This document shows positions 49,909 through 61,838 of a stretch of 64,000 nucleotides of DNA, piece after piece; positions within the stretch are counted from its first letter, which is position 1; each line of letters starts with the position of its first letter. Location of the stretch: positions 310,001 to 374,000 of the forward strand of contig JAQTXZ010000001.1 of NCBI GenBank assembly GCA_028688515.1, read 5' to 3'. The notes under the pieces were generated by a model. The model saw nothing but the letters and a program-made list of their open reading frames with translations, was not told the DNA's origin and searched no databases. Origin of the DNA: Patescibacteria group bacterium (GTDB lineage: Bacteria > Patescibacteriota > Patescibacteriia > 2-12-FULL-60-25). The position numbers were made by a program, and so were the translations under genes.

Positions 49909-50003
49909 TTGACAAGTGATATAATTGAGCTATACCTTTTTTCGTATAAGTGGCAAGATGTGGATGACTATGCGAAGTGTTTTCGCATAGAAACGAGTTG
50001 TGC
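49861..50003 (+). other. attI-like head of cassette array 1
   Basis: The hydrolase 3' end is followed by TAAGTGGCAAGATGTGGATG, a perfect 9-bp hairpin (CTATGCGAA 49968-49976, TTCGCATAG 49982-49990) and a core GTTGTGC at 49997-50003. The first cassette begins inside that core: its R'' box at 54345 is GCACAAC, the exact reverse complement. A diverged copy of this entire unit heads array 2 (59409-59535), with a compensatory base-pair change in the hairpin. No T tract follows the hairpin, so it is not a simple terminator. No integrase lies beside it. Confidence 0.7.
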
Positions 50004-50009
50004 GACATA

Positions 50010-50080
50010 TTTTTCAATATTTTTTCTCTAATAAGGAATTTTGTTGAAGAATTTAAAAAAGGAATGGAATTTTTATTTTT
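50010..50080. repeat. Left inverted repeat of cassette 1 (Hachiman)
   Basis: Pairs with 54225-54294 over ~70 bp. Identical blocks are TTTTTCAATATTTTTTC, TTTTGTTGAAGAATTT and TGGAATTTTTATTTTT. An internal AATAAGGAAT is in opposite orientation relative to the arms. Confidence 0.88.
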
Positions 50081-50132
50081 TATTTTAATGAGGGGGATAT
50101 AAGGTATTTTTTGCTTCGTTCCTCCGCAAAAA

Positions 50133-50963
50133 ATGATATTTGATTTAAAAATAAACATGGAAATACTTAAGCATTTTGAAATTAATAAAGAAAATGATTT
50201 TATTATTTTCTCTCTAAAAGATGAGGAGTGGGAGACTTTTATTAATATACTTCCAAGCGAATATAAAGACTGTTTTATTTCTAAAACTGACCTTGAAAGT
50301 CGTATAAAAACCCTTAGTTCAACAAAAGAAAAAGAATTATCTGAAATACTACCAACAGAAGGAAATATAAAATCAGGAGATTTCGGAGAAATATTGACCT
50401 TTTTTCTTTTTAAAGAGATTTATAAAAAACAACAAATTGATGGGCCTAAAAAGTGGAGATGGAAACAAGACCAGAATATGCCTGCTCCCTACTCAGATGT
50501 AATTTTATTTTCAATCAAAAATAATGATAAATACTCAAAGGATGACTTGATTATATCAGCTGAAAGTAAAATGAAAGCTACTAAAGACAAAAGACGTCAT
50601 CCAATCCAACTTTCAATTGACGGAGCAATAAGAGATCATACTTCTAGAATCGCAAAATCGCTAAGCTGGTTAAGAAAAAAATACAAAGATGAAATCGTGA
50701 ATGAAAATTCAGAAAAAGATAAACTTGTTCAATTAGTCAAAAATATTAATCGTTTTATTGAATCTGAAAAACCTGAACATGGAGAATATGTAAAAAAAGT
50801 AAAGGCAATTGCCTTTGTTGAAAAAGATTTTTTGGCAGATGAAAAAGTAAAAACAATAAATGTTCCAGATGAAGCTGGTCTGGATTTAGAAATATATATC
50901 GTCTCAATAAAAGATTTACAAAAAATGTACGAAACTGTTTTTTCTGAAATCCCTAAAATATGA
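50133..50963 (+). CDS. hamA: HamA-like nuclease of a Hachiman defence system
   Basis: A 276-residue AT-rich gene. It shows the DUF1837/HamA pattern with PD-(D/E)xK nuclease elements: SGDFGEILTFFLF (Glu 86), a strand with Asp 122 (PYSDVILFSI) and ESK (Glu 144, Lys 146) in LIISAESKMKATK. HamA is the DNase effector of Hachiman, held in check by and activated through the HamB helicase when aberrant or phage DNA is sensed. The gene overlaps the helicase gene by four bases (ATGA), the standard hamAB arrangement. ATG 50157 is an alternative start. No clear promoter is visible; transcription may read in from the array head. The assignment rests on motif pattern plus partner. Confidence 0.75.
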   Translation: MIFDLKINMEILKHFEINKENDFIIFSLKDEEWETFINILPSEYKDCFISKTDLESRIKTLSSTKEKELSEILPTEGNIKSGDFGEILTFFLFKEIYKKQQIDGPKKWRWKQDQNMPAPYSDVILFSIKNNDKYSKDDLIISAESKMKATKDKRRHPIQLSIDGAIRDHTSRIAKSLSWLRKKYKDEIVNENSEKDKLVQLVKNINRFIESEKPEHGEYVKKVKAIAFVEKDFLADEKVKTINVPDEAGLDLEIYIVSIKDLQKMYETVFSEIPKI

Positions 50964-53900
50964 TAAGTGATAAATTAAAGCTTTGGATAGCCCAGTCTGA
51001 ATCTTGGCAAACTTATATTGATTTTAAATTACCCGAAGATTCAATTGCGGCATATGATTTTTTAAAAAGACCGGAGGATTTTTATATTTCACTTTTTGGA
51101 AGTTTGTATGAAGTTCTTGAGAATCCTGAGATAGAAGAAGAGAAAATACTATCGGTAGCAAAAGGGATGGAAATCTATTCTTTAAAAAATAAAAGAGATA
51201 GTTTTAGTGGAGTAAGTCAATCAAATAATATTTTATTTTCAGCCGGACTGTATTATTTAGCAAATTATTCATCATCAGCTTCTCTTTTGGCTAATATTTT
51301 TACTTTTGAAGATTACCAAGAAGATATTGAAAAATTCTTATTGTCTTTCCTAAATAGGAAAAGTCTGGATCAAAATTTATATAGAGATTTATTGAATAAA
51401 TTTCTAAAAACAGGTAATCAAATTTACTTTATCGAATTACTTAATAAAATTACAGCACAAAAAGATAAATATTTTATAAATGATCCACATTTGTTTTCTC
51501 TTTATTATCTTACAGAGAGAATTCTTTTAAAATTTAAAAAGAGTAATATTTGGACTGATTTATTGGAACAAAATATTGATGTATCTTTTTGGAGAGGATA
51601 TATTGAAAAATCTATTTCTAAAAAGTTTCCAGTTTGGGATTTTTTTCCATCTCAAAAAATAGCATTAGAACAAGGGCTTTTAAAGGAATTTAAATCAATT
51701 GCTTTACAAACTCCAACTAGTTCAGGGAAAACAGCTATTTCTGAACTATTAATTTACAATGAATGGAAAAAAAATCCTCAATGTAGAATTTTATATTTAG
51801 CTCCTTTTAGGGCATTAGCATCAGAATTAAAACAAACTTTTGGAAAAAATTTAGCGGATCTTACAATTTTTTCAAAAACTATTTATGGGGGTGATATTCC
51901 CACCTTAGATGAAAAAAAAGCTATTCAAAATGTAAATCTTCTTATTTCTACTCCAGAAAAGTTTATAGCAATTAAAAACATAGACCCTGATTTTTCAAGA
52001 AATTTTTCAATGATTATTTGTGATGAAGGACACTTGTTAGGAGAACAAGGAAACAGAGGGCTTAACTATGAACTTTTATTATCACAGTTCAAAAAAGAAA
52101 ATAACAAAAAATTTGTTTTTCTTTCTGCTATTGTTCCAAATATTGTAGATATTAATAACTGGTTAGGGGGAAATGAAGAGACTGTAATAAGATCTGATTA
52201 TAGAGCAACTGAAATTGAATGTGCTTTTTTAAAGGAATCCCCGTACTCTACAGAAAAATCCCCAAGATTTGATTTAGAAATAAATCCATTGAGTGAAATT
52301 CCAAAGAAATATATTCTTTATAAATTTTTGACAGAAGATGACTTATCTTACAAAAAAATATCCCCAAAGAAAAAAAAGGAATCAGTAGCAATAGATAATG
52401 ATTTGAAGTCAAAATCTGCAATTATTGCACTAAAATCTTTAAATTCTGGTAGTGTGGCATTGTTCGCACCAACAAAAGGTCCACTTGGAATAAGTGGACT
52501 AGTAGATGAATTAATTTCTCAAATTGATAAAAAACCAGATTTATTTAAACATTTAAATCTTAAAGAAAGATCGGATGATAAAAGTGATTTGAAAGAGTAC
52601 TTCAAGGTAATATTTGGAGAAGATTATTTATTAACAAAAATTACTGATTATAGTATTTTGTTTCATCATGGAGACTTGCCTCAATGTGTAAGAGATGTAA
52701 TCGAGGACTATGTTAGAGAGGAGAAAATTAAATTAGTGATTTGCACAAACACTTTAGCGGAAGGCATAAATTTACCTATTAGAACAATAGTTATTCATAC
52801 AACAAGAAGAGATAATAGAGATGATATTTCAAAAATAAATTTGAGAGATTTGAAAAATCTTTTTGGAAGAGTTGGTAGGGCCGGTAAAGAAACAAAGGGG
52901 CTGGTTATTATTCCAAATCCAAAGGATTTCTCCATCGTAGAAAAAGTAATAAAAGATCAGGAATTACAAAAAGTGGAAGGATATTTATATGAAATTCTTA
53001 AAATCATTCATAAAAACATACAAGCCAAAAAAATTACTCTAACTAATGAAATTTTAGAAGTTCAACCAGAAGAATTTAAAGAGAGGGTTGATGTTATTGA
53101 TAAAGCTATTATTGATCTTCTGGAAGAAAATATCAGCGTTGAAAGTATAGAAGAAAAAATTGAGAACTTGATAAAAGAAACTTTTGCTTATTATCAAGCG
53201 AATGAAGAAGAAAAGAAAACTTTAAATACAGTAATTCAGCTTAGAGGAAAGAAAATAAAACAATATATTGAAAATACTAACTATCAATATATTAAAAAAA
53301 GTGGCTCAAATTTAAGACTCTATGAAGAATTAGAAGAAAAATTAGATCTTGAAAATGATATTTGGACAAATCTTGAAAATGCAAGCAATGATGAATGGTT
53401 AGATTTTATTTTGGAAATTGTTTTTAGTTTATCGTCAATAAAATACCAGCTTCAAAAATTTAATGAGAAAAATTTTAATTGCATGATTGATAGAAAAAAA
53501 ATTTTTCCAAAATATAATGAATATAAAAATATATTAAAAAATATATTTGAAGATACAGAATCGAAAAAATTAGTATTTAAAAATCAAATCGTAGAGGCAG
53601 ACCCAACTGACAACTTTCTCAATTTTCCTGAAAATTTAGAAAGAATTTTAAATAGAGCTTTAGAAAAAAGAAAGAAATATATTACACCCATAGATATAAA
53701 AAAAACTATAAAATTATGGATGAATGGAAAATGGTTCGAAGAAATTTCAAAAGAAGTATGTTCGGATAATATTAATGCCTCTTTGAGACTAATTAATCAA
53801 TTTATGGGATATAATTTACAAAGTGCCATTACTTCGATAATTCATATTACTGAATTAAAACTAAAAGAAGATAAAAAAGTGATATCTGGTACAATATTAG

Positions 53901-54163
53901 ACTTTCCGCAGTATCTACAATATGGATTAAAAAATAAAATTGTGTTATATTTAATGGAACTTGGATTTACAGACCGCATTGGTATAATTGCATTATCAAA
54001 AGAATTAAGTGGCCTCGAATTTTCTGAACCACAAGAATTAAGAAATTATCTTAATCTTAATAATCAACAAGTGCTCAATTCTATTAAAGATAAGTTGCCA
54101 AGGATTGTTTATGATGGAATCGAAAAATCACTTAATTTTTTGGAATATGATTTTATTAAATAA
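50960..54163 (+). CDS. hamB: HamB-like superfamily 2 helicase of a Hachiman defence system
   Basis: A 1067-residue Ski2-like SF2 helicase. An N-terminal domain of ~220 residues precedes motif I TPTSSGKT (about residue 252), motif II DEGH (about 354), motif III LSAIVPN, motif V ICTNTLAEGINLP (about 594) and motif VI FGRVGRAGK (about 635). A ~400-residue helical C-terminal region follows. This matches HamB, the ATP-driven DNA sensor that partners HamA. All core motifs look intact, so it is probably functional. Codon use is strongly AT-biased compared with the neighbouring chromosome, consistent with acquisition. It ends 62 bases before the right inverted repeat of its cassette. Confidence 0.8.
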   Translation: MISDKLKLWIAQSESWQTYIDFKLPEDSIAAYDFLKRPEDFYISLFGSLYEVLENPEIEEEKILSVAKGMEIYSLKNKRDSFSGVSQSNNILFSAGLYYLANYSSSASLLANIFTFEDYQEDIEKFLLSFLNRKSLDQNLYRDLLNKFLKTGNQIYFIELLNKITAQKDKYFINDPHLFSLYYLTERILLKFKKSNIWTDLLEQNIDVSFWRGYIEKSISKKFPVWDFFPSQKIALEQGLLKEFKSIALQTPTSSGKTAISELLIYNEWKKNPQCRILYLAPFRALASELKQTFGKNLADLTIFSKTIYGGDIPTLDEKKAIQNVNLLISTPEKFIAIKNIDPDFSRNFSMIICDEGHLLGEQGNRGLNYELLLSQFKKENNKKFVFLSAIVPNIVDINNWLGGNEETVIRSDYRATEIECAFLKESPYSTEKSPRFDLEINPLSEIPKKYILYKFLTEDDLSYKKISPKKKKESVAIDNDLKSKSAIIALKSLNSGSVALFAPTKGPLGISGLVDELISQIDKKPDLFKHLNLKERSDDKSDLKEYFKVIFGEDYLLTKITDYSILFHHGDLPQCVRDVIEDYVREEKIKLVICTNTLAEGINLPIRTIVIHTTRRDNRDDISKINLRDLKNLFGRVGRAGKETKGLVIIPNPKDFSIVEKVIKDQELQKVEGYLYEILKIIHKNIQAKKITLTNEILEVQPEEFKERVDVIDKAIIDLLEENISVESIEEKIENLIKETFAYYQANEEEKKTLNTVIQLRGKKIKQYIENTNYQYIKKSGSNLRLYEELEEKLDLENDIWTNLENASNDEWLDFILEIVFSLSSIKYQLQKFNEKNFNCMIDRKKIFPKYNEYKNILKNIFEDTESKKLVFKNQIVEADPTDNFLNFPENLERILNRALEKRKKYITPIDIKKTIKLWMNGKWFEEISKEVCSDNINASLRLINQFMGYNLQSAITSIIHITELKLKEDKKVISGTILDFPQYLQYGLKNKIVLYLMELGFTDRIGIIALSKELSGLEFSEPQELRNYLNLNNQQVLNSIKDKLPRIVYDGIEKSLNFLEYDFIK

Positions 54164-54224
54164 AAAGATAGGGTGTTTTTCTTTTTCCAATTCACCCCTA
54201 ACCCCTCTTGGAAAAAGAAAAACG

Positions 54225-54294
54225 AAAAATAAAAATTCCAAATTATGAAAAAATTCTTCAACAAAATAATAAGGAATGAAAAAATATTGAAAAA
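54225..54294. repeat. Right inverted repeat of cassette 1 (Hachiman)
   Basis: Reverse complement of 50010-50080 with mismatches in the middle. Fifty bases (ACGCTTCGGGG to CTCACCCTC) separate it from the R'' box of attC1. Upstream, 54187-54224 contains a CACCCCTAACCCCTC-type fragment. Confidence 0.88.
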
Positions 54295-54344
54295 TACGCT
54301 TCGGGGTCGTTACACTTTCGCTCCACTCCGTTACGCTCACCCTC

Positions 54345-54442
54345 GCACAACACAGTATATCTGGCTCGCTCGTGCCCTCGCTCGACCCATATTTGCCTCC
54401 GCTATCGCTACGGCAAACATCAGATATACTGAAACGTTGTAC
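54345..54442 (+). other. attC1
   Basis: R'' GCACAAC (54345-54351), L'' AGTATATCTG (54354-54363), L' CAGATATACT (54421-54430) and R' GTTGTAC (54436-54442). The L arms pair perfectly over 10 bp with the asymmetric spacing of integron attC sites; the loop contains a CCGTAGCG-type inner palindrome. It ends the Hachiman cassette. Confidence 0.88.
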
Positions 54443-54576
54443 GCCATACTGCCCATTTTTCTGATACAATGCGAAAGGAACTTTTAGAACATTTTTAACA
54501 TTTTTTTATCTGCACCCACTAATGAGCTAAATAGATAGCGCCTACTTAAAACATTCAACTTTCAATATAATATTTT

Positions 54577-55596
54577 ATGGCAAGAGATATTACACTCTAT
54601 CCAAGGAAAGCCTCACAGAGAGAACTTAGCGACTATTTGAAAAGTCTAGGCTTTGAAAGATGTGACCATTTTTGGGATTGGCCAAAGGGAACGCTCAATT
54701 ATTTTTGGTTTGAACATAAAGACTTTAAATCCATTGATGGTGTGTCGGCAGATATATTCCCAGTTTCAGATGAAGATTTAAAAATAACAGAAAATAAATG
54801 GGCTTTACATGTGCGGAACATATACTCTGCCAGCTGGCATGATGTTAAAATGCTTAATCATGTCCTAAGATATGCTCGAAAGAAATTTGGGGGGACAATT
54901 AAGGGTGATTATGGAATCAATAGATATGCACCCTTATGGAAAGACGAAAGTACGCCTATAAGTAGGGGTTTGTCTGCCATTTATCAAAAAGTTGAACAAC
55001 AGATAAGTGCAGTTAAATATTCACTTCCGGAACCGTCTATTGAACTCAAACCTTCAAATGTCAAAATAGATAAATTCATTGAATTTGCTAACGGGCTTGA
55101 CCCAGCCCGGGTAATCTACAACGGATTAGTTCCCTTTGCTGTATCTATGTTTGAATTTTTCTTTTCTCAATCATTTCAGGTTCTCATTAAGTATGATCCT
55201 TTTGCGCTTAAAAAAAGAAACAGTCATAAACAAAATATTGATTTCTCAACTGTACTTGAATTACAAAACGAACAGAGGACATTTGAAAGTATAATAGCAG
55301 AGGCCTTTACCTTTCAAAATCTAAACCAACTGAATAAAGCCTATAAGGAATGGTTGAATATTGACGTTAGAGAAATACTATTTAAGAAGAAAAAAATAGG
55401 AGCCTCTATCAGGTATTTAGAAAATAGGATCGCTGAAATAATTCAGTTTAGACATGGGATTATTCATCACTTCGCCATAGACTCAAAATTAACAAAAGCT
55501 GACTATATACACATTCTGCAAGCTATTGAGTTGGCAATTGCTGAGTTCATTCATTTCATAGAAAAGAGGTACAACATAAAAGTTGAAGTAGCTTAA
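54577..55596 (+). CDS. Cassette 2 protein with C-terminal HEPN-like Rx4H motif
   Basis: A 339-residue protein. The N-terminal half is unrecognised (MARDITLYPRKASQRELSDY). The C-terminal third is helical and carries FRHGIIHHF around residue 293, an R-x4-H motif of HEPN ribonucleases, followed by a long helix (HILQAIELAIAEFIHFIEKR). HEPN proteins with this motif are often RNA-cleaving effectors in defence or toxin systems; activity here is inference. It fills cassette 2 between array cores 54436 and 55754, with inverted repeats near both ends (CTTTTAGAACATTTTTA 54481-54497 and its complement 55603-55619). Confidence 0.65.
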   Translation: MARDITLYPRKASQRELSDYLKSLGFERCDHFWDWPKGTLNYFWFEHKDFKSIDGVSADIFPVSDEDLKITENKWALHVRNIYSASWHDVKMLNHVLRYARKKFGGTIKGDYGINRYAPLWKDESTPISRGLSAIYQKVEQQISAVKYSLPEPSIELKPSNVKIDKFIEFANGLDPARVIYNGLVPFAVSMFEFFFSQSFQVLIKYDPFALKKRNSHKQNIDFSTVLELQNEQRTFESIIAEAFTFQNLNQLNKAYKEWLNIDVREILFKKKKIGASIRYLENRIAEIIQFRHGIIHHFAIDSKLTKADYIHILQAIELAIAEFIHFIEKRYNIKVEVA

Positions 55597-55652
55597 AATT
55601 GATAAAAATGTTCTAAAAGACTCTATTTAAGACGAAAAATGGGTAGTACAAC

Positions 55653-55760
55653 GTACAACACGCACTAGGCGGTTCCGTTCGATGACTCACTCCACCCAAA
55701 TTTTGCACTGGTTATGATATTATACCAGCACAAAACTTCGCCCAGTGCGAAACGTTATAC
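55653..55760 (+). other. attC2
   Basis: R'' GTACAAC (55653-55659; a tandem second copy at 55646), L'' CGCACTAGGCG (55661-55671), L' CGCCCAGTGCG (55739-55749, one mismatch) and R' GTTATAC (55754-55760). R'' is the exact complement of the preceding core GTTGTAC (54436). The loop holds an inner stem TTTTGC...GCACAAAA. Confidence 0.88.
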
Positions 55761-55785
55761 GAAATATTTATTACCCCTTTTATTT

Positions 55786-56121
55786 ATGACTGAAAAATAT
55801 GACTTCTACTGTGAAGAGGCTTTATCTGACAAAACAGACATTGATAAAATTTTCGAGTCCGATAATGTTCTAGCTTTTCACCATACGAGGCCGTCATATC
55901 CGACTCATATTGTAATAATATCTAAGAAGCATATTCTAGACCTACCCTCTTTGCTAGATGAAGATTTAATAATACTAAATGAAATTCTGAAGGTTGCTCG
56001 TGATATTTCCAGGACATTGGATAAAGACCAGGGGTTGAAGTTGATTAATAATATTGGCAAATTTCAAGATACGCCTCATATTCATTTTCATTTAGTTGGT
56101 GGTGAAAAGCTAGAACGCTAA
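55786..56121 (+). CDS. HIT family nucleotide hydrolase/transferase
   Basis: A 111-residue HIT-superfamily protein with the catalytic histidine triad HIHFHLVGG (about residues 99-107) and the upstream FHHTRPSYPTHIVIISKKHI strand region. Such proteins hydrolyse nucleotidyl conjugates such as AMP-lysine or Ap4A. I start at ATG 55786 (MTEKYDFYC), because the upstream part of the frame lies inside the attC site. Cassette 3 cargo; ATTTATTACCC (55766) and GGGTAATAAAT (56130) are its inverted ends. Confidence 0.85.
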   Translation: MTEKYDFYCEEALSDKTDIDKIFESDNVLAFHHTRPSYPTHIVIISKKHILDLPSLLDEDLIILNEILKVARDISRTLDKDQGLKLINNIGKFQDTPHIHFHLVGGEKLER

Positions 56122-56145
56122 TATTGAATGGGTAATAAATACATC

Positions 56146-56224
56146 GTAGAACATTTCATATCTGGTTCCGCTAACGCTTCACGCAAATTGCTTGGCAACT
56201 GCAGATATAAAAATGACGTTCTGC
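56146..56224 (+). other. attC3
   Basis: R'' GTAGAAC (56146-56152), L'' region CATATCTG, L' CAGATATAAAAATG (from 56202) and R' GTTCTGC (56218-56224). R'' differs from the complement of the preceding core by one base. Confidence 0.82.
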
Positions 56225-56247
56225 GAAATTCAATAACCCAAAATACT

Positions 56248-56649
56248 ATGAAAAAAATAATAGCTACAACCAAGGCGCCAGCAGCAACACCTCTTTTCTC
56301 ACAAGCGATTCTTGAATCTTCAAAATATCGCTTGGAAATATCTGGACAGATCGGCCTTGACGGCAATGGCAAATTGGTAGATGGAGGCATTGAGGCTCAA
56401 ACCAAGCAAACTCTTCAAAATGTCGAAGGCATAGTGAGCGAACTTGGCTGGACGCTTGAAAATTTAACAAAGGTCAGGATATATTTGGTTGATATGGCAG
56501 ACTACACAAAGGTTAATGAGGTTTATGCCACCAAGTTCACGAAAAATCCTCCCGCAAGAATTGCCATTGCCGTCAAAGCCTTACCACTGGGAGCGCTCAT
56601 AGAAATTGAATGTGTTGCTGCTGGCGATGAAATATCGAAAGTTATTTAA
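56248..56649 (+). CDS. RidA (YjgF/UK114) family protein
   Basis: A 133-residue RidA-fold protein; RidA enzymes hydrolyse reactive enamine/imine intermediates formed by PLP enzymes. Visible: KYRLEISGQIGLDGNGKLVD, QTKQTLQNVEGIVSELG, the signature-like NPPARIAIAVKALPLGALIE with the catalytic-site Arg, and IECVAAG. I start at ATG 56248; the frame upstream is attC sequence. Cassette 4 cargo, bounded by perfect 15-bp inverted repeats (56229-56243 and 56660-56674). Confidence 0.9.
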   Translation: MKKIIATTKAPAATPLFSQAILESSKYRLEISGQIGLDGNGKLVDGGIEAQTKQTLQNVEGIVSELGWTLENLTKVRIYLVDMADYTKVNEVYATKFTKNPPARIAIAVKALPLGALIEIECVAAGDEISKVI

Positions 56650-56678
56650 TAGCAGTGGGTTTTGGGTTATTGAACATC

Positions 56679-56764
56679 GCAGAACACGCGATATCCGCAA
56701 GGGCTAAAGCCACATTTCAATTCGCTTCGCTTCTTGAAACGTCGGATATCGCGATACGTTATGA
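56679..56764 (+). other. attC4
   Basis: R'' GCAGAAC (56679-56685), L'' CGCGATATCCG (56687-56697), L' CGGATATCGCG (56743-56753, perfect 11-bp complement) and R' GTTATGA (56758-56764). R'' is the exact complement of the preceding core GTTCTGC (56218). Confidence 0.9.
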
Positions 56765-56816
56765 GACATTACGCTAATTTTCACATAAACTAAATTTACA
56801 TTTAACCAATACTTTT

Positions 56817-57308
56817 ATGTCTCAAGCGTTAAAAATGATCTTTGTTGCAGTCGTCGCCGCACTTATCGGAGGTAGCGGCACATATTTGTATCAAGCAAAT
56901 CAATCTCCAATTTCGCCACTCGCTAATACACAAGAACGAAAAATAAACGAACCGGAAGTTACAACAGCAATTGGTTCTGCAAATAAATTTACAGGGGTGG
57001 CAAAGTATAACTGTGAGAAAAGTGGCGGTTCGTTTACCAATAATAGTTGCGTATGTCCTATTGAAGCAGAATTAGGCCAGACTCAAGAGATGATGTATGA
57101 CAAAAATACCGGCTATTGCCAAACAACAGCCGGCGGTCCGGGTGGTGATGCTTTTGCTACTTCAATTGGATTACCATATGGAGATTATGGATTCTTTATG
57201 GGTATCATCGTAAATAGTTGTGAAAAATCGGGTGGCGAAATGTCTGGCGCGGCTTGTATTTGTTCAAAGAACACGACTTACGATAAGTCGACAGGATATT
57301 GTAAATAA
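56817..57308 (+). CDS. Cys-rich membrane-anchored or secreted protein (cassette 5)
   Basis: A 163-residue protein with an N-terminal signal/anchor (about residues 6-26) and two related Cys-rich units outside: NCEKSGG...CVC...TGYCQ (about 65-101) and SCEKSGG...CIC...TGYCK (about 134-163). The four-Cys units suggest small disulphide-bonded domains. No family recognised. Its cassette ends are the inverted CGCTAATTTT (56772) and AAAATTAGCG (57307). Confidence 0.7.
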   Translation: MSQALKMIFVAVVAALIGGSGTYLYQANQSPISPLANTQERKINEPEVTTAIGSANKFTGVAKYNCEKSGGSFTNNSCVCPIEAELGQTQEMMYDKNTGYCQTTAGGPGGDAFATSIGLPYGDYGFFMGIIVNSCEKSGGEMSGAACICSKNTTYDKSTGYCK

Positions 57309-57323
57309 AATTAGCGCGACATC

Positions 57324-57433
57324 ACTTAACAGCGCATGTCTGGTTCGGCTGCGGCCTCACCCATATTTGCCAGCGGTCGCCCTTCGGGCATATTGTACCG
57401 CTGGCAAACATCAGATATGCGCAAACGTTAAGT
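57324..57433 (+). other. attC5 (last site of array 1)
   Basis: R'' ACTTAAC (57324-57330), L'' GCGCATGTCTG (57332-57342), L' CAGATATGCGC (57412-57422) and R' GTTAAGT (57427-57433). An inner stem TTGCCAGCGG/CCGCTGGCAA is visible. R'' complements its own R' rather than the preceding core GTTATGA. Confidence 0.88.
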
Positions 57434-57439
57434 TAAATA

Positions 57440-57480
57440 TGAAAAAGAAAAGCCCCGCACGGTGAAACCGCATGGGGGAA
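57440..57480 (-). terminator. Intrinsic terminator of the minus-strand gene
   Basis: On the minus strand CCCCATGCGGT-TTC-ACCGTGCGGGG is followed by CTTTTCTTTTT, just inside the end of array 1. Confidence 0.75.
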
Positions 57481-57506
57481 TGATGGAGAGGAGCTGCTTA
57501 TCAGAA

Positions 57507-57905
57507 TTAATCCGGCGGAAGGAAGAGGCTGTCGGGCGCTTCGGTAATAGTGCATTTTGCGCCACCTCTGCCGGTTGCCGGACTGGAATATTCTCCGACC
57601 CACAGGTCACCTACGCGCCTGAACTTGTAGCGAATGATGTCGTTGCGGTTGTCGTATTTCTTTGCGAACTCTGCATCTTCCTGGGTGATCTTCACATCGA
57701 ACAACTCCGACTCGCCGAAATGGTCAAACATCTCACCGATCAGCTCTTGCTCGCTGTGAGGATTGGGGTAGATCACCCCAGAGTACATATATCTGCAAAG
57801 TCCTTCATGAATTACAACGCCAACGCCGCCCTCAACTTCTGACCGATGAGCGACGCTTAACCACTCACGGTTTTGAAAAAAGAACCCATGAATCAAACGT
57901 GCCAT
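57507..57905 (-). CDS. ORFan protein encoded against the array direction
   Basis: A 132-residue protein (MARLIHGFFFQNREWLSVAH start) of unknown family, without signal or membrane segments. It is the only minus-strand gene in the cassette region and has higher GC than the cassettes. A strong SD (GGGAGGTG) lies just before the ATG and a terminator follows, so it is self-sufficient. The SD context GAGGTGCAG resembles that of the ORFan at 832. It may be a cassette with its own promoter or chromosomal sequence trapped between two arrays. Confidence 0.68.
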   Translation of the reverse strand: MARLIHGFFFQNREWLSVAHRSEVEGGVGVVIHEGLCRYMYSGVIYPNPHSEQELIGEMFDHFGESELFDVKITQEDAEFAKKYDNRNDIIRYKFRRVGDLWVGEYSSPATGRGGAKCTITEAPDSLFLPPD

Positions 57906-58062
57906 TCTGCACCTCCCAGTTGAACAGCTTGATGGGTGTGTTTTGTTGAGATATTACGTGATTACACCCTAAAAATCAAGGGTGAGCAAAAAAATCAAAG
58001 GGGTATTTTAAATCTATACATTTGTTCGCTCTGGTGGCAATATGCAAATAGCTGGATGATAT

Positions 58063-58734
58063 ATGAAGACATGGTTAAAACGTTCACTTATCGCCCTCGG
58101 CATTCTGGTGGTTTTTGGAGTAAGTTTGATTTTTGGCGTCAATCTGTACGTGGAGCGAACAAGCTCTCGTTATATTTTAAGTCCCACGGAAGCTCCCAAG
58201 GCGGATGCGGTTTTAGTGCTTGGCGCGCACGTATTTTCCGATGGAAAGGTTTCGGACATGTTGAACGATCGTTTAATCGAGGCGCAAGAGCTGTACAAAC
58301 TTGGCAAAGCCGACAAGATATTGGTTAGCGGCGACCATGGTCAAAAAGATTATGATGAAGTGAATGCAATGAAGGATTTTTTGGTTGAGAGGGGTGTCCC
58401 GACACAAGATATTTTTATGGATCACGCCGGCTTTAGTACATACGAGAGCATGTACAGGGCAAGAGATGTTTTTGAAATAAAAAAGGTTATTATCGTTACG
58501 CAAGGATACCACTTGATGAGGGCTGTATTTGACGCAAGGGAGCTTGGTCTTGAGGCTTATGGCGTTGCCTCTGACCTGCGCAATTACGGTCCGGTGATGA
58601 ACTCGTACCGATTAAGGGAAATCGCAGCCAGGGACAAGGATTTCTTTTTTGCAAAGCTCTTCAAGCCCTTGCCGACTTTTCTTGGTAAAACAATTCCAAT
58701 TACGGGAGATGGCAGAGCGACGGATGATAAATGA
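58063..58734 (+). CDS. SanA/YdcF-like DUF218 membrane-anchored protein
   Basis: A 223-residue protein with one N-terminal membrane helix (about residues 9-28) and a DUF218 domain: ADAVLVLGAHVFSDGKVSDM, DRLIEAQELYKLGKADKILV, SGDHG, STYESMYRARDVF and VTQGYHLMRAVFDARELGLE. SanA and its relatives affect envelope permeability in other bacteria; the chemistry is unsettled. It lies between the two cassette arrays, followed 13 bases later by a methyltransferase. Confidence 0.85.
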   Translation: MKTWLKRSLIALGILVVFGVSLIFGVNLYVERTSSRYILSPTEAPKADAVLVLGAHVFSDGKVSDMLNDRLIEAQELYKLGKADKILVSGDHGQKDYDEVNAMKDFLVERGVPTQDIFMDHAGFSTYESMYRARDVFEIKKVIIVTQGYHLMRAVFDARELGLEAYGVASDLRNYGPVMNSYRLREIAARDKDFFFAKLFKPLPTFLGKTIPITGDGRATDDK

Positions 58735-58747
58735 TGCTCACGCTATT

Positions 58748-59410
58748 ATGAAACCAAACGAAAAGCAAAATATATTTACTGATGATGTGGATTATGCGAG
58801 TACTCCCGATGATTCTGTCTGGGGTGCAGAGGATAAAGCTACGAATGATTTATTGCAGAGCGCTAATATTACAGGGAAATGGCTTAACTTATGCGCCGGC
58901 GACGGAAGATTTAACAATCGGTTGCTGATCAGGGCTGATCAGGTTATCGCTGCCGATATTGACGAAAGCGCTCTAAGAAAATTAATTCGTATTACGCCTA
59001 AAAAACTAAAGAACAAGCTTGTCACGAAAGAAATGAATGTTGCCAAACGATTTACATTTGAGGACGGCGCGTTTGATGGCGTGTTTTGTGTCGGTACCTT
59101 GCATCTTTTTCCGAAACAGATTTTTAAAAATATATTCGGTGAAATAGAAAGGGTCTTAAAGCATGACGGACAAATAATCATGGATTTTGCCACAGATATT
59201 AAAAGAACTTACCCCGATGGCAGTTTATGGATTGTTGAGAATGAACCGAATTATACTTTAAACGAAGCGCTTTCATTTTTGAAAGTCATATTCAAAAATT
59301 ATAAGTTCAATATCGTTACGAATAAAGTTGAGCCCGAAAAGGTGAAGTTAAATAACAGGGAATATGTTTTTACTTCTAATTATATTCTGATTAATACATT
59401 TACTGATTGA
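58748..59410 (+). CDS. Class I SAM-dependent methyltransferase
   Basis: A 220-residue methyltransferase: KWLNLCAGDGRFNNRLL is motif I (E/DxGxGxG variant), VIAADIDESALRKLI is motif II, and FDGVFCVGTLHLFPKQIFKN, then IERVLKHDGQIIMDFA, follow the UbiE/Methyltransf_11 layout. Substrate unknown. I start at ATG 58748 (MKPNEKQ). Its stop (59408-59410) overlaps the first codon of a remnant of the hydrolase 3' end. Confidence 0.8.
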   Translation: MKPNEKQNIFTDDVDYASTPDDSVWGAEDKATNDLLQSANITGKWLNLCAGDGRFNNRLLIRADQVIAADIDESALRKLIRITPKKLKNKLVTKEMNVAKRFTFEDGAFDGVFCVGTLHLFPKQIFKNIFGEIERVLKHDGQIIMDFATDIKRTYPDGSLWIVENEPNYTLNEALSFLKVIFKNYKFNIVTNKVEPEKVKLNNREYVFTSNYILINTFTD

Positions 59411-59456
59411 TATCTTGCTGCAGTGTATACAGGTATCGTTTCAGATGCCGGGTTAG
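59409..59456 (+). pseudogene. 3'-terminal remnant of an alpha/beta hydrolase gene
   Basis: Sixteen codons reading DILLQCIQVSFQMPG and a TAG align with the last 16 codons of the hydrolase at 49228-49908 (DSLAQWMQESFQVPM). By eye about 35 of 48 bases match. Nothing upstream of it matches, since the methyltransferase occupies that side. Confidence 0.75.
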
Positions 59457-59535
59457 TCGAGCTTTACGGTTTTTCGCTTAAGTGGCAGGATATGGATGGT
59501 TATACGAAGTGATTTCGTATAGAAGCGAGTTCTGC
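59457..59535 (+). other. attI-like head of cassette array 2
   Basis: TTAAGTGGCAGGATATGGAT, a hairpin (TATACGAA 59501-59508, TTCGTATA 59514-59521) and a core GTTCTGC (59529-59535). It is a diverged copy of 49918-50003. The hairpin pair G-C of copy 1 is A-T here, so pairing is preserved by covariation. The following cassette's R'' is GCAGAAC (60173), the exact complement of this core. Confidence 0.7.
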
Positions 59536-59539
59536 GAAA

Positions 59540-59582
59540 TGCCAATAAATTCTTTTATTTATAATTTGGGGAAGTTTTATTC
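59540..59582. repeat. Left inverted repeat of the HD-protein cassette
   Basis: TGCCAATAAATTCTT and TTTGGGGAAGTTTTATTC, both mirrored exactly at 60122-60168. Confidence 0.88.
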
Positions 59583-59596
59583 TTGCGTCAAAATAT

Positions 59597-60118
59597 ATGT
59601 CAAAATCACTTAATATAAAATTTGAAAAAGCCGTCCGAATTCTGTCGGAATATATGCCACCGTCAGATGAAAATAGCAGAAAGCCTGTGATGTTTCACGA
59701 TATACGCGTTGGCGTGTATTTATATGAAAATGGTTATTCAGAAGATGTTGTTTTGGCTGGCGTTTTGCACGATGCGATTGAGTGGTCTGGTGCTGACGAA
59801 CAATTGTTGAGAGATGAGTTTGGAGATAATGTTGTTCGCTTGATTTTTGCGAGCACTAAAGATGATACGATCGTGGACAAAGAGGAAAAAACCAACGAGC
59901 TGATTCAAAGATGTGTGCAAAACGGGCAAGATGCGCTTATTGTTAAGACTGCCGATATTATTGATAGCTTCAAGTGGTATGCCAGCCAAAACAACGAGGA
60001 CGAATTAAAAAATCATTGTGTTAAGAACGCCAACGCTATTTTCAAATTTAAACCGGAAGATTTTGACGATAAAATATTTAAAGAGTTGAAAAGTTGGCAA
60101 GAAAGATTTGCAAGATAA
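59597..60118 (+). CDS. HD-domain phosphohydrolase-like protein (cassette)
   Basis: A 173-residue protein resembling the HD hydrolase domain of RelA/SpoT-type proteins. Visible: KPVMFHDIRVGVYLYENGYS, VVLAGVLHDAIEWSGADEQL (the HD motif) and ALIVKTADIIDSFKWYASQN, with a later acidic residue that could complete the metal site. It may hydrolyse (p)ppGpp or other nucleotides; activity is inferred from the fold. Cargo of the first cassette of array 2. Confidence 0.75.
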   Translation: MSKSLNIKFEKAVRILSEYMPPSDENSRKPVMFHDIRVGVYLYENGYSEDVVLAGVLHDAIEWSGADEQLLRDEFGDNVVRLIFASTKDDTIVDKEEKTNELIQRCVQNGQDALIVKTADIIDSFKWYASQNNEDELKNHCVKNANAIFKFKPEDFDDKIFKELKSWQERFAR

Positions 60119-60121
60119 ACC

Positions 60122-60168
60122 GAATAAAACTTCCCCAAATACAATAAGGAAGTAAGAATTTATTGGCA
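60122..60168. repeat. Right inverted repeat of the HD-protein cassette
   Basis: GAATAAAACTTCCCCAAA and AAGAATTTATTGGCA, reverse complements of blocks at 59540-59582; ends five bases before attC6. Confidence 0.88.
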
Positions 60169-60172
60169 CATC

Positions 60173-60300
60173 GCAGAACACGGCATATCCGGTTCAGGAA
60201 TTTTTCACATTTATAATTCAAGGTAAGAAAAATTCCTTCTCCCAAATTTTTGTTCCGCTATCGCTGCACAAAAACTTCGGATGATGCCGAAACGTTATAT
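60173..60300 (+). other. attC6
   Basis: R'' GCAGAAC (60173-60179), L'' CGGCATATCCG (60181-60191), L' CGGATGATGCCG (60278-60289, one extra base) and R' GTTATAT (60294-60300). The long loop has an inner AGGAATTTTTC/GAAAAATTCCT stem. Confidence 0.88.
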
Positions 60301-60336
60301 GCCAGCGGGCGAGAAACACTCTAATTCACAAATACT

Positions 60337-60681
60337 ATGACACACGAATTCAAAGGAACTATTGTTGAGGAAAGTTTACAAGATAATCGAATACTCAACG
60401 ATTTACATATTATTGGTGTAGAGATTTCTCAAGACGAAAATCCAGCTAACCGATGGCATATGTATTCAGTGTTAGTGACTCGGGAAGACATTGAACGTCT
60501 TTCAGTCACCATCAAGCCGAAGTGGTATATGCACTTTTGGAAGGACAGGGATATTGTTGCGATTTTTCAGGGAAAACAGTTTGAGTTTAATTACGATGAT
60601 AAATCGACATGGGCACAGGCAGTTGAATATGGTTTATCCCAGGGAATTCCCAAAGAACAGCTGGATTTTCTCATTGATTAA
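60337..60681 (+). CDS. Hypothetical cassette protein
   Basis: A 114-residue soluble protein of unknown family (MTHEFKGTIVEESLQDNRIL start; WYMHFWKDRDIVAIFQGKQF). The WYMHFWK and IFQGKQFEF segments suggest a compact alpha/beta domain. It fills the cassette between cores 60294 and 60756; the inverted ends share GCGGGCGAG (60305) and CTCGCCCGC (60688). Confidence 0.65.
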   Translation: MTHEFKGTIVEESLQDNRILNDLHIIGVEISQDENPANRWHMYSVLVTREDIERLSVTIKPKWYMHFWKDRDIVAIFQGKQFEFNYDDKSTWAQAVEYGLSQGIPKEQLDFLID

Positions 60682-60700
60682 CGTGTCCTCGCCCGCCAGC

Positions 60701-60762
60701 ACATAACAGCGTATATCTGCCATGCGCTACGCGACACAGCGGATGATACGCGAACGTTAGGC
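60701..60762 (+). other. attC7
   Basis: The shortest site: R'' ACATAAC (60701-60707), L'' GCGTATATCTGC, L' GCGGATGATACGC and R' GTTAGGC (60756-60762). R'' differs by one base from the complement of the preceding core. Confidence 0.85.
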
Positions 60763-60779
60763 GAAATAAATCCCCACTC

Positions 60780-61451
60780 ATGAAAAGTAATAAAGCAATC
60801 CTAATCGCAGTCATTCTTTCGATAATATTTTCTGGCATTTACATTTTTACTAATCGGATGCCCGAAGCATTTAAGTTTGGTAGCGAAATAATGGATTTCT
60901 TCTACGGAATTGCACTTGGGACTATAGCAGCTGGTATTTTTTACCTCTTTCAAGTTTTTATTCCCGAAAAAAGAAGGCAAAAAATTGTGAGGGAAAATTT
61001 CAAATTGAACTACACCCTCTTTAAAAAAGATTCTATAGCTATTTTTCTTTCTGCCTTAGGTTCAAGCTACGACTCAGAATTGCCTAAAATGCTTTCCGAT
61101 CTGGAGGAGTTCAAAAAATATTTCAAGGCAGATTTCAAAGAGGGCCAAGACAGGTGGCATGGCGTTGTAAATGGATTGAATAAAAATTTGCTTCAAGATT
61201 TACTTGTTCAATTTGAAATTTTATCGCAAGAAATAGATTTTTTTCTAAACAATGTTGTACTTCACGACGAGGAAGTTTTTGCCTTCTTAAAAAGGTTAAA
61301 AATTACAATAAACGGGTTAAAAAATACCAGCCTAGACTATGATGAGATGAAAACGCTTTCGCACTTTCTTTGGGAGCTTTTCGCGGGATGGAGCTACGTT
61401 ACAGGATATCGAAAGAGCGACATCTTTGAGGAAATGTTTAGCAAAGTTTGA
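60780..61451 (+). CDS. Hypothetical membrane protein (cassette)
   Basis: A 223-residue protein with two N-terminal membrane helices (about residues 5-23 and 38-61) and a helical, Phe- and Lys-rich cytoplasmic domain (about 65-223). No family recognised. Cassette ends are the inverted TAAATCCCCAC (60767) and GTGGGGATTTA (61454). The two-helix anchor plus soluble domain is a common layout for membrane-associated effectors, but there is no direct evidence of that here. Confidence 0.65.
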   Translation: MKSNKAILIAVILSIIFSGIYIFTNRMPEAFKFGSEIMDFFYGIALGTIAAGIFYLFQVFIPEKRRQKIVRENFKLNYTLFKKDSIAIFLSALGSSYDSELPKMLSDLEEFKKYFKADFKEGQDRWHGVVNGLNKNLLQDLLVQFEILSQEIDFFLNNVVLHDEEVFAFLKRLKITINGLKNTSLDYDEMKTLSHFLWELFAGWSYVTGYRKSDIFEEMFSKV

Positions 61452-61468
61452 TCGTGGGGATTTACATC

Positions 61469-61838
61469 ACTTAACACGGTATAGCCGGTTCGCTCGCTAA
61501 AAATTATTCTTTAATCGAAGATATGAAAAAAATACTCGTATCAACATTAGTAATATTGGTTTTGATAATTATCTATCAAGCCATACAGATTATTCGTTTA
61601 GAACGATACCACTATGCATCTCAACTTGGTTACTGTCAGGAAATAGAGGAGCTTGTTGAGAGGGGAAGGTGTCTCAACGAGACCGAGACAAGAACAAGTC
61701 CGATTTATCATTTGCTTTACGGACTGGAACTAATTTAAAAGAATAATTTTTGACGTTCGCTCACCCAAATTTGGCTGTGGTGAGCACTGCGTGCGAATTG
61801 TACCACTGCCAAACTACGGCTATTGCGGAACGTTAGAC
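61469..61838 (+). other. attC8, split by an inserted small gene
   Basis: The left half is R'' ACTTAAC (61469-61475) and L'' CGGTATAGCCG (61477-61487). The right half is L' CGGCTATTGCG (61817-61827) and R' GTTAGAC (61832-61838). The halves pair but are about 330 bases apart. GTTCGCTCGC (61488-61497) and GTTCGCTCAC (61755-61764) flank an insert bounded by inverted TAAAAATTATTCTTTAA and its complement (61735-61753). It is the last site of the array. Confidence 0.8.
61523..61738 (+). CDS. Small membrane-anchored protein nested in attC8
   Basis: A 71-residue protein with an N-terminal hydrophobic helix (KILVSTLVILVLIIIYQAIQ) and a short polar tail with two Cys (GYCQEI, GRCLNE). No family recognised. 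It sits within the loop of an attC site, surrounded by its own inverted repeats. Confidence 0.6.
   Translation: MKKILVSTLVILVLIIIYQAIQIIRLERYHYASQLGYCQEIEELVERGRCLNETETRTSPIYHLLYGLELI

Follow-up and report, generated by a model that had tools for sequence, protein, structure and literature searches.

The window, that is the whole 64,000-nt stretch of DNA analysed, corresponds to positions C4:310001-374000 of a 1.29-Mb genome (G000; relatives have 0.7-1.5 Mb). It contains two cassette arrays, A (49997-57434, cassettes c1-c5) and B (from 59529 on, cassettes h1-h3), and two further arrays are present in the same genome (C4:622993-625773 and C2:75712-87599). The arrays have attC sites with R'', L'', L' and R' boxes that fold as hairpins on the bottom strand, a single orientation and genes between the sites, which is the structure of an integron. 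The sites opening the two arrays, the first R' box and the cargo genes discussed here are as follows.

49925-50000, + strand: attI-like site opening array A, one of four copies in the genome, aligned with the three other array-start copies
49997-50004, + strand: R' box of cassette 1 (GTTGTGCG), reverse complement of its own R'' CGCACAAC at 54344-54351
50133-50963, + strand: HamA of Hachiman defence, cargo of cassette 1 (PADLOC HamA, E=8.7e-64; Pfam HamA)
50960-54163, + strand: HamB helicase, cargo of cassette 1 (PADLOC HamB, 1067 bits)
59455-59531, + strand: attI-like site opening array B, aligned with the other array-start copies
59597-60118, + strand: HD-domain protein, cargo of h1, the HD cassette (Pfam HD_4)

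Each of the four attI-like copies opens an array (the remaining two are at L038:17550-17581 and L039:8724-8755), and their alignment gave the conserved core AAGTGGCAnnATnTGGA..TATnCGAAGTG. The sites hold a perfect TATACGAA/TTCGTATA hairpin. Three of the four are distant from the recombinase gene, and a search of the relatives found the pattern in genome G000 only.

Cassette 1 carries a whole HamA-HamB (Hachiman) anti-phage system (50133-54163) in 4.35 kb. Large single cassettes of 3.4-5.4 kb with multiple genes also occur at L108:3397, L104:7716, L103:136 and L100:5901 (array-strand coordinates), and the one at L108:3397 resembles a restriction-modification operon, one of its ORFs being helicase-like. 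The attC following h3 (61475-61832) has a loop of ~350 nt with a 71-aa ORF (61523-61738), which is bracketed by an inverted repeat of its own, AAAAATTATTCTTT; the L'' and L' of this attC remain matched. This loop is possibly a cassette fused into the attC.

The sequence-only reading of this DNA had claimed that every complete cassette has inverted repeats just inside its attC cores. These arms are real by their own versus cross-cassette scores, by their fixed register and at the following coordinates, given here together with the attC sites and one insert.

50008-50081, + strand: 5' arms of cassette 1 (blocks 50008-50026 and ~50067-50081), inverted repeat with 54225-54296, score 62, 0/500 shuffles
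54225-54296, + strand: 3' arms of cassette 1, pairing with 50008-50081
54297-54343, + strand: class II insert from arm to R'' of cassette 1, 47 nt, GC-rich, folding as an extra branch, with a like insert in like position in 32/119 relatives' cassettes
54344-54442, + strand: attC of cassette 1, R'' to next R' (bottom-strand fold z=-5.5; attC model 100 bits)
54447-54461, + strand: 5' arm 1 of cassette 2, pairing with 55634-55648
54481-54505, + strand: 5' arm 2 of cassette 2, pairing with 55595-55619 (92%)
55595-55619, + strand: 3' arm 2 of cassette 2, partner of 54481-54505
55634-55648, + strand: 3' arm 1 of cassette 2, partner of 54447-54461
55652-55761, + strand: attC of cassette 2 (bottom-strand fold z=-4.5)
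55765-55776, + strand: 5' arm of cassette 3, pairing with 56130-56141 inside a 31-nt pair
56130-56141, + strand: 3' arm of cassette 3, partner of 55765-55776
56145-56225, + strand: attC of cassette 3 (bottom-strand fold)
56229-56243, + strand: 5' arm of cassette 4, 15/15 with 56660-56674
56660-56674, + strand: 3' arm of cassette 4, partner of 56229-56243
56678-56765, + strand: attC of cassette 4 (bottom-strand fold)
56772-56781, + strand: 5' arm of cassette 5, 10/10 with 57307-57316
57307-57316, + strand: 3' arm of cassette 5, partner of 56772-56781
57323-57434, + strand: attC of cassette 5, end of array A (bottom-strand fold z=-7.3)
59540-59554, + strand: 5' arm 1 of the HD cassette, 15/15 with 60154-60168
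59563-59582, + strand: 5' arm 2 of the HD cassette, pairing with 60122-60141
60122-60141, + strand: 3' arm 2 of the HD cassette, partner of 59563-59582
60154-60168, + strand: 3' arm 1 of the HD cassette, partner of 59540-59554
60172-60301, + strand: attC of the HD cassette (attC model)
60305-60313, + strand: 5' arm of cassette h2, pairing with 60688-60696
60688-60696, + strand: 3' arm of cassette h2, partner of 60305-60313
60700-60763, + strand: attC of cassette h2 (attC model)
60767-60777, + strand: 5' arm of cassette h3, pairing with 61454-61464
61454-61464, + strand: 3' arm of cassette h3, partner of 60767-60777

Local alignment of own ends scored 62 (c1), 45 (c2), 30 (c3), 31 (c4), 20 (c5), 57 (h1), 20 (h2) and 22 (h3), against mostly 12-23 for cross-cassette pairs, and in 8 out of 8 cassettes the own opposite end beat nearly every other cassette's. 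Dinucleotide shuffles reached the observed score in none of 500 for c1, c2, c3 and h1, in 1 for c4, 9 for h3, 26 for h2 and 56 for c5. The arms of c5 and h2 are weak by themselves, yet they lie in the common fixed register, with an outward offset of 3 nt between the 8-nt R box and the start of the arm in all window cassettes. For c3 the top-scoring local match is internal, and the arm named by the earlier reading falls within a 31-nt inverted pair. Chance as the source of the arms was ruled out with cross-cassette, shuffled, interior and direct-orientation controls. The long arms reported for c1, c2 and h1 are indeed paired, but each of them is two arms with unpaired or hairpin segments between. 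Likewise the inverted repeat behind the ~70-bp arm of cassette 1 is present, but a 47-nt GC-rich hairpin insert parts it from R''.

A covariance model was built from the 7 complete attC sites of the window. It found sites in 87 of 193 related genomes and in 47 of the 287 searched across the phylum, and gave just two marginal matches on 0.95 Mb of canonical integron DNA. Because the model covers only the first three arm bases, the arm is not presupposed by detection. The relatives yielded 119 cassettes from 43 loci, 87 of class I and 32 of class II. Class I ends read GTTnnnnGAAAT plus the arm on the R' side and, reverse-complemented, GTTnnnnGATGT plus the arm on the R'' side; in class II a 40-65-nt hairpin substitutes part of the R''-side junction, and the arm continues beyond it. 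Identity between own ends at positions 12-25 was 0.61-0.84, versus 0.26-0.48 for cross pairs, with background from about position 26. The 8-nt R box matched exactly between own R' and R'' in 57% of the relatives' cassettes versus 7% across cassettes, as is the case in integrons. Of the 119, 63 lay above the 99th percentile of cross pairs. Among 55 cassettes from other classes of the phylum, the arm was found in 21 of 35 of class I (cross 0.2%) and 12 of 20 of class II (cross 3%), which are lower bounds because some "cassettes" are two with a missed attC.

As a control, 79 cassettes of canonical integrons (loci L140-L223) were taken through the identical analysis with a separate attC model. Own identity was 0.8-1.0 to position 8, 0.5 at position 9, 0.4 at position 10 and background after, and only 1/79 cassettes exceeded the 99th cross percentile. 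It agrees with the published own complementarity of canonical cassette ends, 9-11 nt (PMC2727003); the earlier description, with the complementarity of classical cassettes limited to the R boxes, is by this figure a little too strict. Own pairing ended after ~10 nt in these cassettes, which rules out the arms as a general integron trait; this was the test that the sequence-only reading had set against itself, and its claim survived. Canonical integrons (class 1, Vibrio, Shewanella, Pseudomonas and others) have in common with the arrays here a tyrosine recombinase divergent from an attI-like site, a one-directional array, attC sites with R'', L'', L', R', a central spacer and a bottom-strand fold, and the match of own R' and R''. 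They differ in that their own pairing stops at 9-11 nt, whereas here it extends to ~25 nt and beyond with branched ends; also unlike them, four attI-like sites stand in one genome, and cassettes reach 5.4 kb.

Going outward from the R box, the order is a conserved mismatch, arm 1 and then, in ~40% of cassettes, a pair of mini-hairpins with another arm of ~30 bp, forming a four-way junction; in about one third an extra hairpin is found at the mismatch instead. The mismatch is AAAT/ATGT in 60 of 85 cases, and it is a T-T beside a G-T pair on the bottom strand, versus A-A plus A-C on the top strand. Arm 1 has a mode of 14 bp and is Watson-Crick at 884/898 (98.4%). Inward of it, own complementarity was above the 99th cross percentile in 42/84 cassettes. 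A second arm (median 29 bp) is present in 37 cassettes after gaps of 15 and 18 nt, and these gaps often form perfect mini-hairpins. Fold predictions for the bottom strand give clean four-way junctions, as at L103:4278 and L108:3397. Cassettes are longer when they have the second arm (median 1053 vs 555 nt, p=4e-6).

Hairpin loops of the types d(cGNNAg) and d(cGNAg) are unusually stable in DNA, as oligonucleotide studies have found. Their bottom-to-top ratio was 20:0 in cassette ends, 18:1 in attC and 8:5 in gene bodies. Canonical integrons recombine the bottom strand (PMC2727003). Wobble pairs would be G-U on the top strand in 72 cases versus 93 the opposite way (3 versus 6 within arm 1), which is not the pattern of a structured RNA.

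It had been proposed that the arms would lengthen the attC stem in the circular cassette, and this is supported. The circle junction of own ends had -35.5 kcal/mol versus -26.3 for the integrated junction (n=81), a gain of 9.3, with 70/81 more stable in the circle. Canonical cassettes had -26.7 versus -23.2 kcal/mol (n=52); the whole of this 3.5 gain came from the boxes, and the flanks contributed nothing specific. When ends of 100 nt were folded with the inner hairpin fixed, the advantage of own over cross ends was 16.4 kcal/mol in the CPR set versus 4.6 in the canonical one.

In two close homologue pairs (body 85% and 89%) the arms were unchanged at 60/60 positions, and the flanking UTR had 85-88%. 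Between h1 of the window and L108:2620 (body 69%, UTR 52-59%) the arms agreed at 14/15, the change being matched on both sides. Distant cassette homologues have differing arms, each internally matched. These few close homologue pairs suggest that the arms are under constraint. Covariation was also sought among many HD homologues, and few were usable because most are not cassettes. That the arms might be native to the gene was rejected, since most of the HD-gene homologues that lie outside arrays are without the ends.

The arms had further been described as unique to each cassette. The specificity of own over cross ends upholds this in part, but some near-identical end families enclose unrelated genes: a minority of end frames is common to unrelated genes, and arms are not always unique. 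The end frames F1 (four genera) and F2 are ~95% identical around unrelated genes, and similarity stops near the gene. Near-identical ends of ~75 nt at the 5' and ~125 nt at the 3' side surround unrelated genes in four genera (L104:7716, L100:5901, L109:3609, L117:152).

An integron also has a tyrosine recombinase, and one was identified in this genome.

C2:87654-88466 (L001:1201-2016), divergent from the attI-like site at 87530-87599: tyrosine recombinase of 271 aa

It aligns with the Vibrio cholerae integrase 2a3v save the IntI-specific stretch, which is absent. Wherever both motifs occur, GKGxKxR and HxLRH are separated by 58 residues in all members of the lineage and by 99-100 in all IntI. 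The IntI-specific I2 domain was not found (TIGR02249 207 bits, below the cut-off of 265); among NCBIfam families XerA scored best (216 bits, cut-off 220), and no canonical IntI scored above cut-off elsewhere in the genome. Recombinase relatives occurred in 79 of 193 genomes, 65 of these with attC (Fisher p=9e-19); among these draft assemblies 22 of the 87 attC genomes were without a recombinase match, and 14 recombinase genomes without an attC match. Of 43 hand-picked recombinase-attC pairs on the same contig, 42 had the recombinase divergent from the nearest attC (median 1.1 kb), the exception, G158, being a short contig that was omitted from the script. The recombinases form one clade outside the insert-bearing IntI clade (100/97, and 100/98 minus the insert columns); because outgroup branches are long, the deep placement, and with it the choice between ancestral absence and loss, is uncertain.

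On the DNA side, the L''/L' stem was best paired bulge-free in 102/117 attC sites (9.25/10 matched), whereas 53/54 canonical sites need a bulge; extrahelical bases were not found in the L stem. The recombinase has no insert and the attC sites are bulge-free, so neither member of the I2/extrahelical-base pair is present. Canonical integrons have both, and the lineage here has neither. XerA, XerC and XerD likewise lack the I2 insert; unlike these enzymes at the dif site, the recombinases here form their own clade and adjoin attC arrays. CTXphi integration by XerCD also uses a folded single-stranded hairpin without extrahelical bases and a recombinase without I2 (PMC4792948), but there a phage site is used by host enzymes, whereas here a gene-cassette array has its own recombinase. 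The I2 domain is described as necessary for integron-mediated recombination (PMC9668308), and the origin of this domain and of the extrahelical bases has been called a chicken-and-egg paradox (Escudero et al., PMC4792948). The sequence-only reading had not noted that the recombinase has no I2 insert and the attC sites no extrahelical bases, nor the conserved mismatch, the branched ends and the occurrence across the phylum. A literature search for integrons in CPR, Patescibacteria or Parcubacteria, covering mainly open-access papers, found nothing relevant.

An extended attC best explains the joint absence of I2 and extrahelical bases, together with an outer structure that is biased to the bottom strand and keeps a constant distance to the R box. 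We consider it more likely than not, with a probability of about 0.6, that these arrays belong to a distinct integron lineage present across the phylum, in which the folded ends of the cassettes form an extended bottom-strand attC, perhaps replacing the recognition through I2 and extrahelical bases. Both ends of each cassette would be built to fold together on the bottom strand, and in the excised circle the attC hairpin would be prolonged outward via the mismatch, the 14-bp arm and often a four-way junction with the ~30-bp second arm. The outer mismatch and arm(s) would stabilise the site, and possibly select the strand, as I2 and extrahelical bases do elsewhere. The stable fold would form mostly in the free circle, in which the two ends of a cassette lie side by side, and it would promote insertion. 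We infer three things: the recombinase acts on these attC sites, the ends fold in the circle, and the arms raise integration. The earlier suggestion that the arms aid single-strand folding and recombination is favoured by the bottom-strand loop polarity, the folding energies and the arm conservation in close homologues.

Identical base pairs are available in the integrated form, and the main rival to the extended attC is that the arms pair across the gene there, while the bottom strand is single as lagging-strand template; the gene would be looped out and the flanking half-sites drawn close to each other, so that precisely one cassette is cut out or the array is protected. Own R' and R'' boxes likewise pair across the gene, and long cassettes have the second arm more often, as expected if a longer loop requires it, which suits looping better than a purely local hairpin. 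But such a loop would break the pairing of R' with the upstream R'', and the conserved mismatch abuts the R box right where a circle-folded attC needs it; we consider looping improbable. A poorer candidate still is a scar of cassette birth, in which fold-back synthesis or template switching copied one end in inverted form onto the opposite end, after which the distal parts decay. Such copying would be matched with the near-perfect pairing, with the long arms that in some cassettes span from start codon to stop codon and with the end frames common to unrelated genes, and through the last of these the earlier idea that arms record cassette making stands as a side point only. However, arm 1 is narrow in length and lies behind a conserved mismatch that copying would erase; arms are kept in close homologues while flanks diverge, double changes are matched, and the mini-hairpins differ between sides yet retain their loop type. 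Arms may first come about through inverted copying and yet serve another purpose today.

Each arm is placed between an R box and the start or stop codon, and the first start codon of the scanned ORF comes after arm 1 in nearly all cassettes, as would suit pairing of the 5' and 3' UTRs of a cassette transcript to protect the mRNA or control translation. We hold this very unlikely, and the transcript protection proposed earlier is disfavoured, as top-strand G-U pairs are not in excess, the DNA-type loops of cassette ends are on the bottom strand with none on the top, and the position of the arms is tied to the recombination boxes rather than to the gene.

Beyond the extended attC itself, there is a somewhat less than even chance that these arrays represent a second, phylum-wide integron architecture independent of I2 and extrahelical bases, in which the folded cassette is recognised from outside via a mismatch closed by cassette-specific, often branched arms; it would be either a missing intermediate in integron origin or an independent single-strand solution. 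Cassette arrays with neither I2 nor extrahelical bases make the chicken-and-egg question directly testable. Tools that need an I2 profile or canonical-trained attC models would call these arrays integrase-less or miss them. Extended programmable arms would be a new control of single-strand recombination. Because the arrays carry defence genes, they are a possible route to gain immunity for bacteria with small genomes.

Two smaller elements recur at the cassette ends. A 3' hairpin past the stop codon with the loop ATTCACCCC..CCCCTCT is present in the window (54171-54225) and in F1 and L038 cassettes, and a 5' AGAGGGGG motif (50089-50105 in the window; also F1 and L038 cassettes) could pair with its loop. 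In array L135 (1195, 1872, 3155, 5583) a GC-rich palindromic repeat, GTTATGACGCCATCGCTTCGCTCTCGGCGTCATAACGGC, lies between attC and cassette start.
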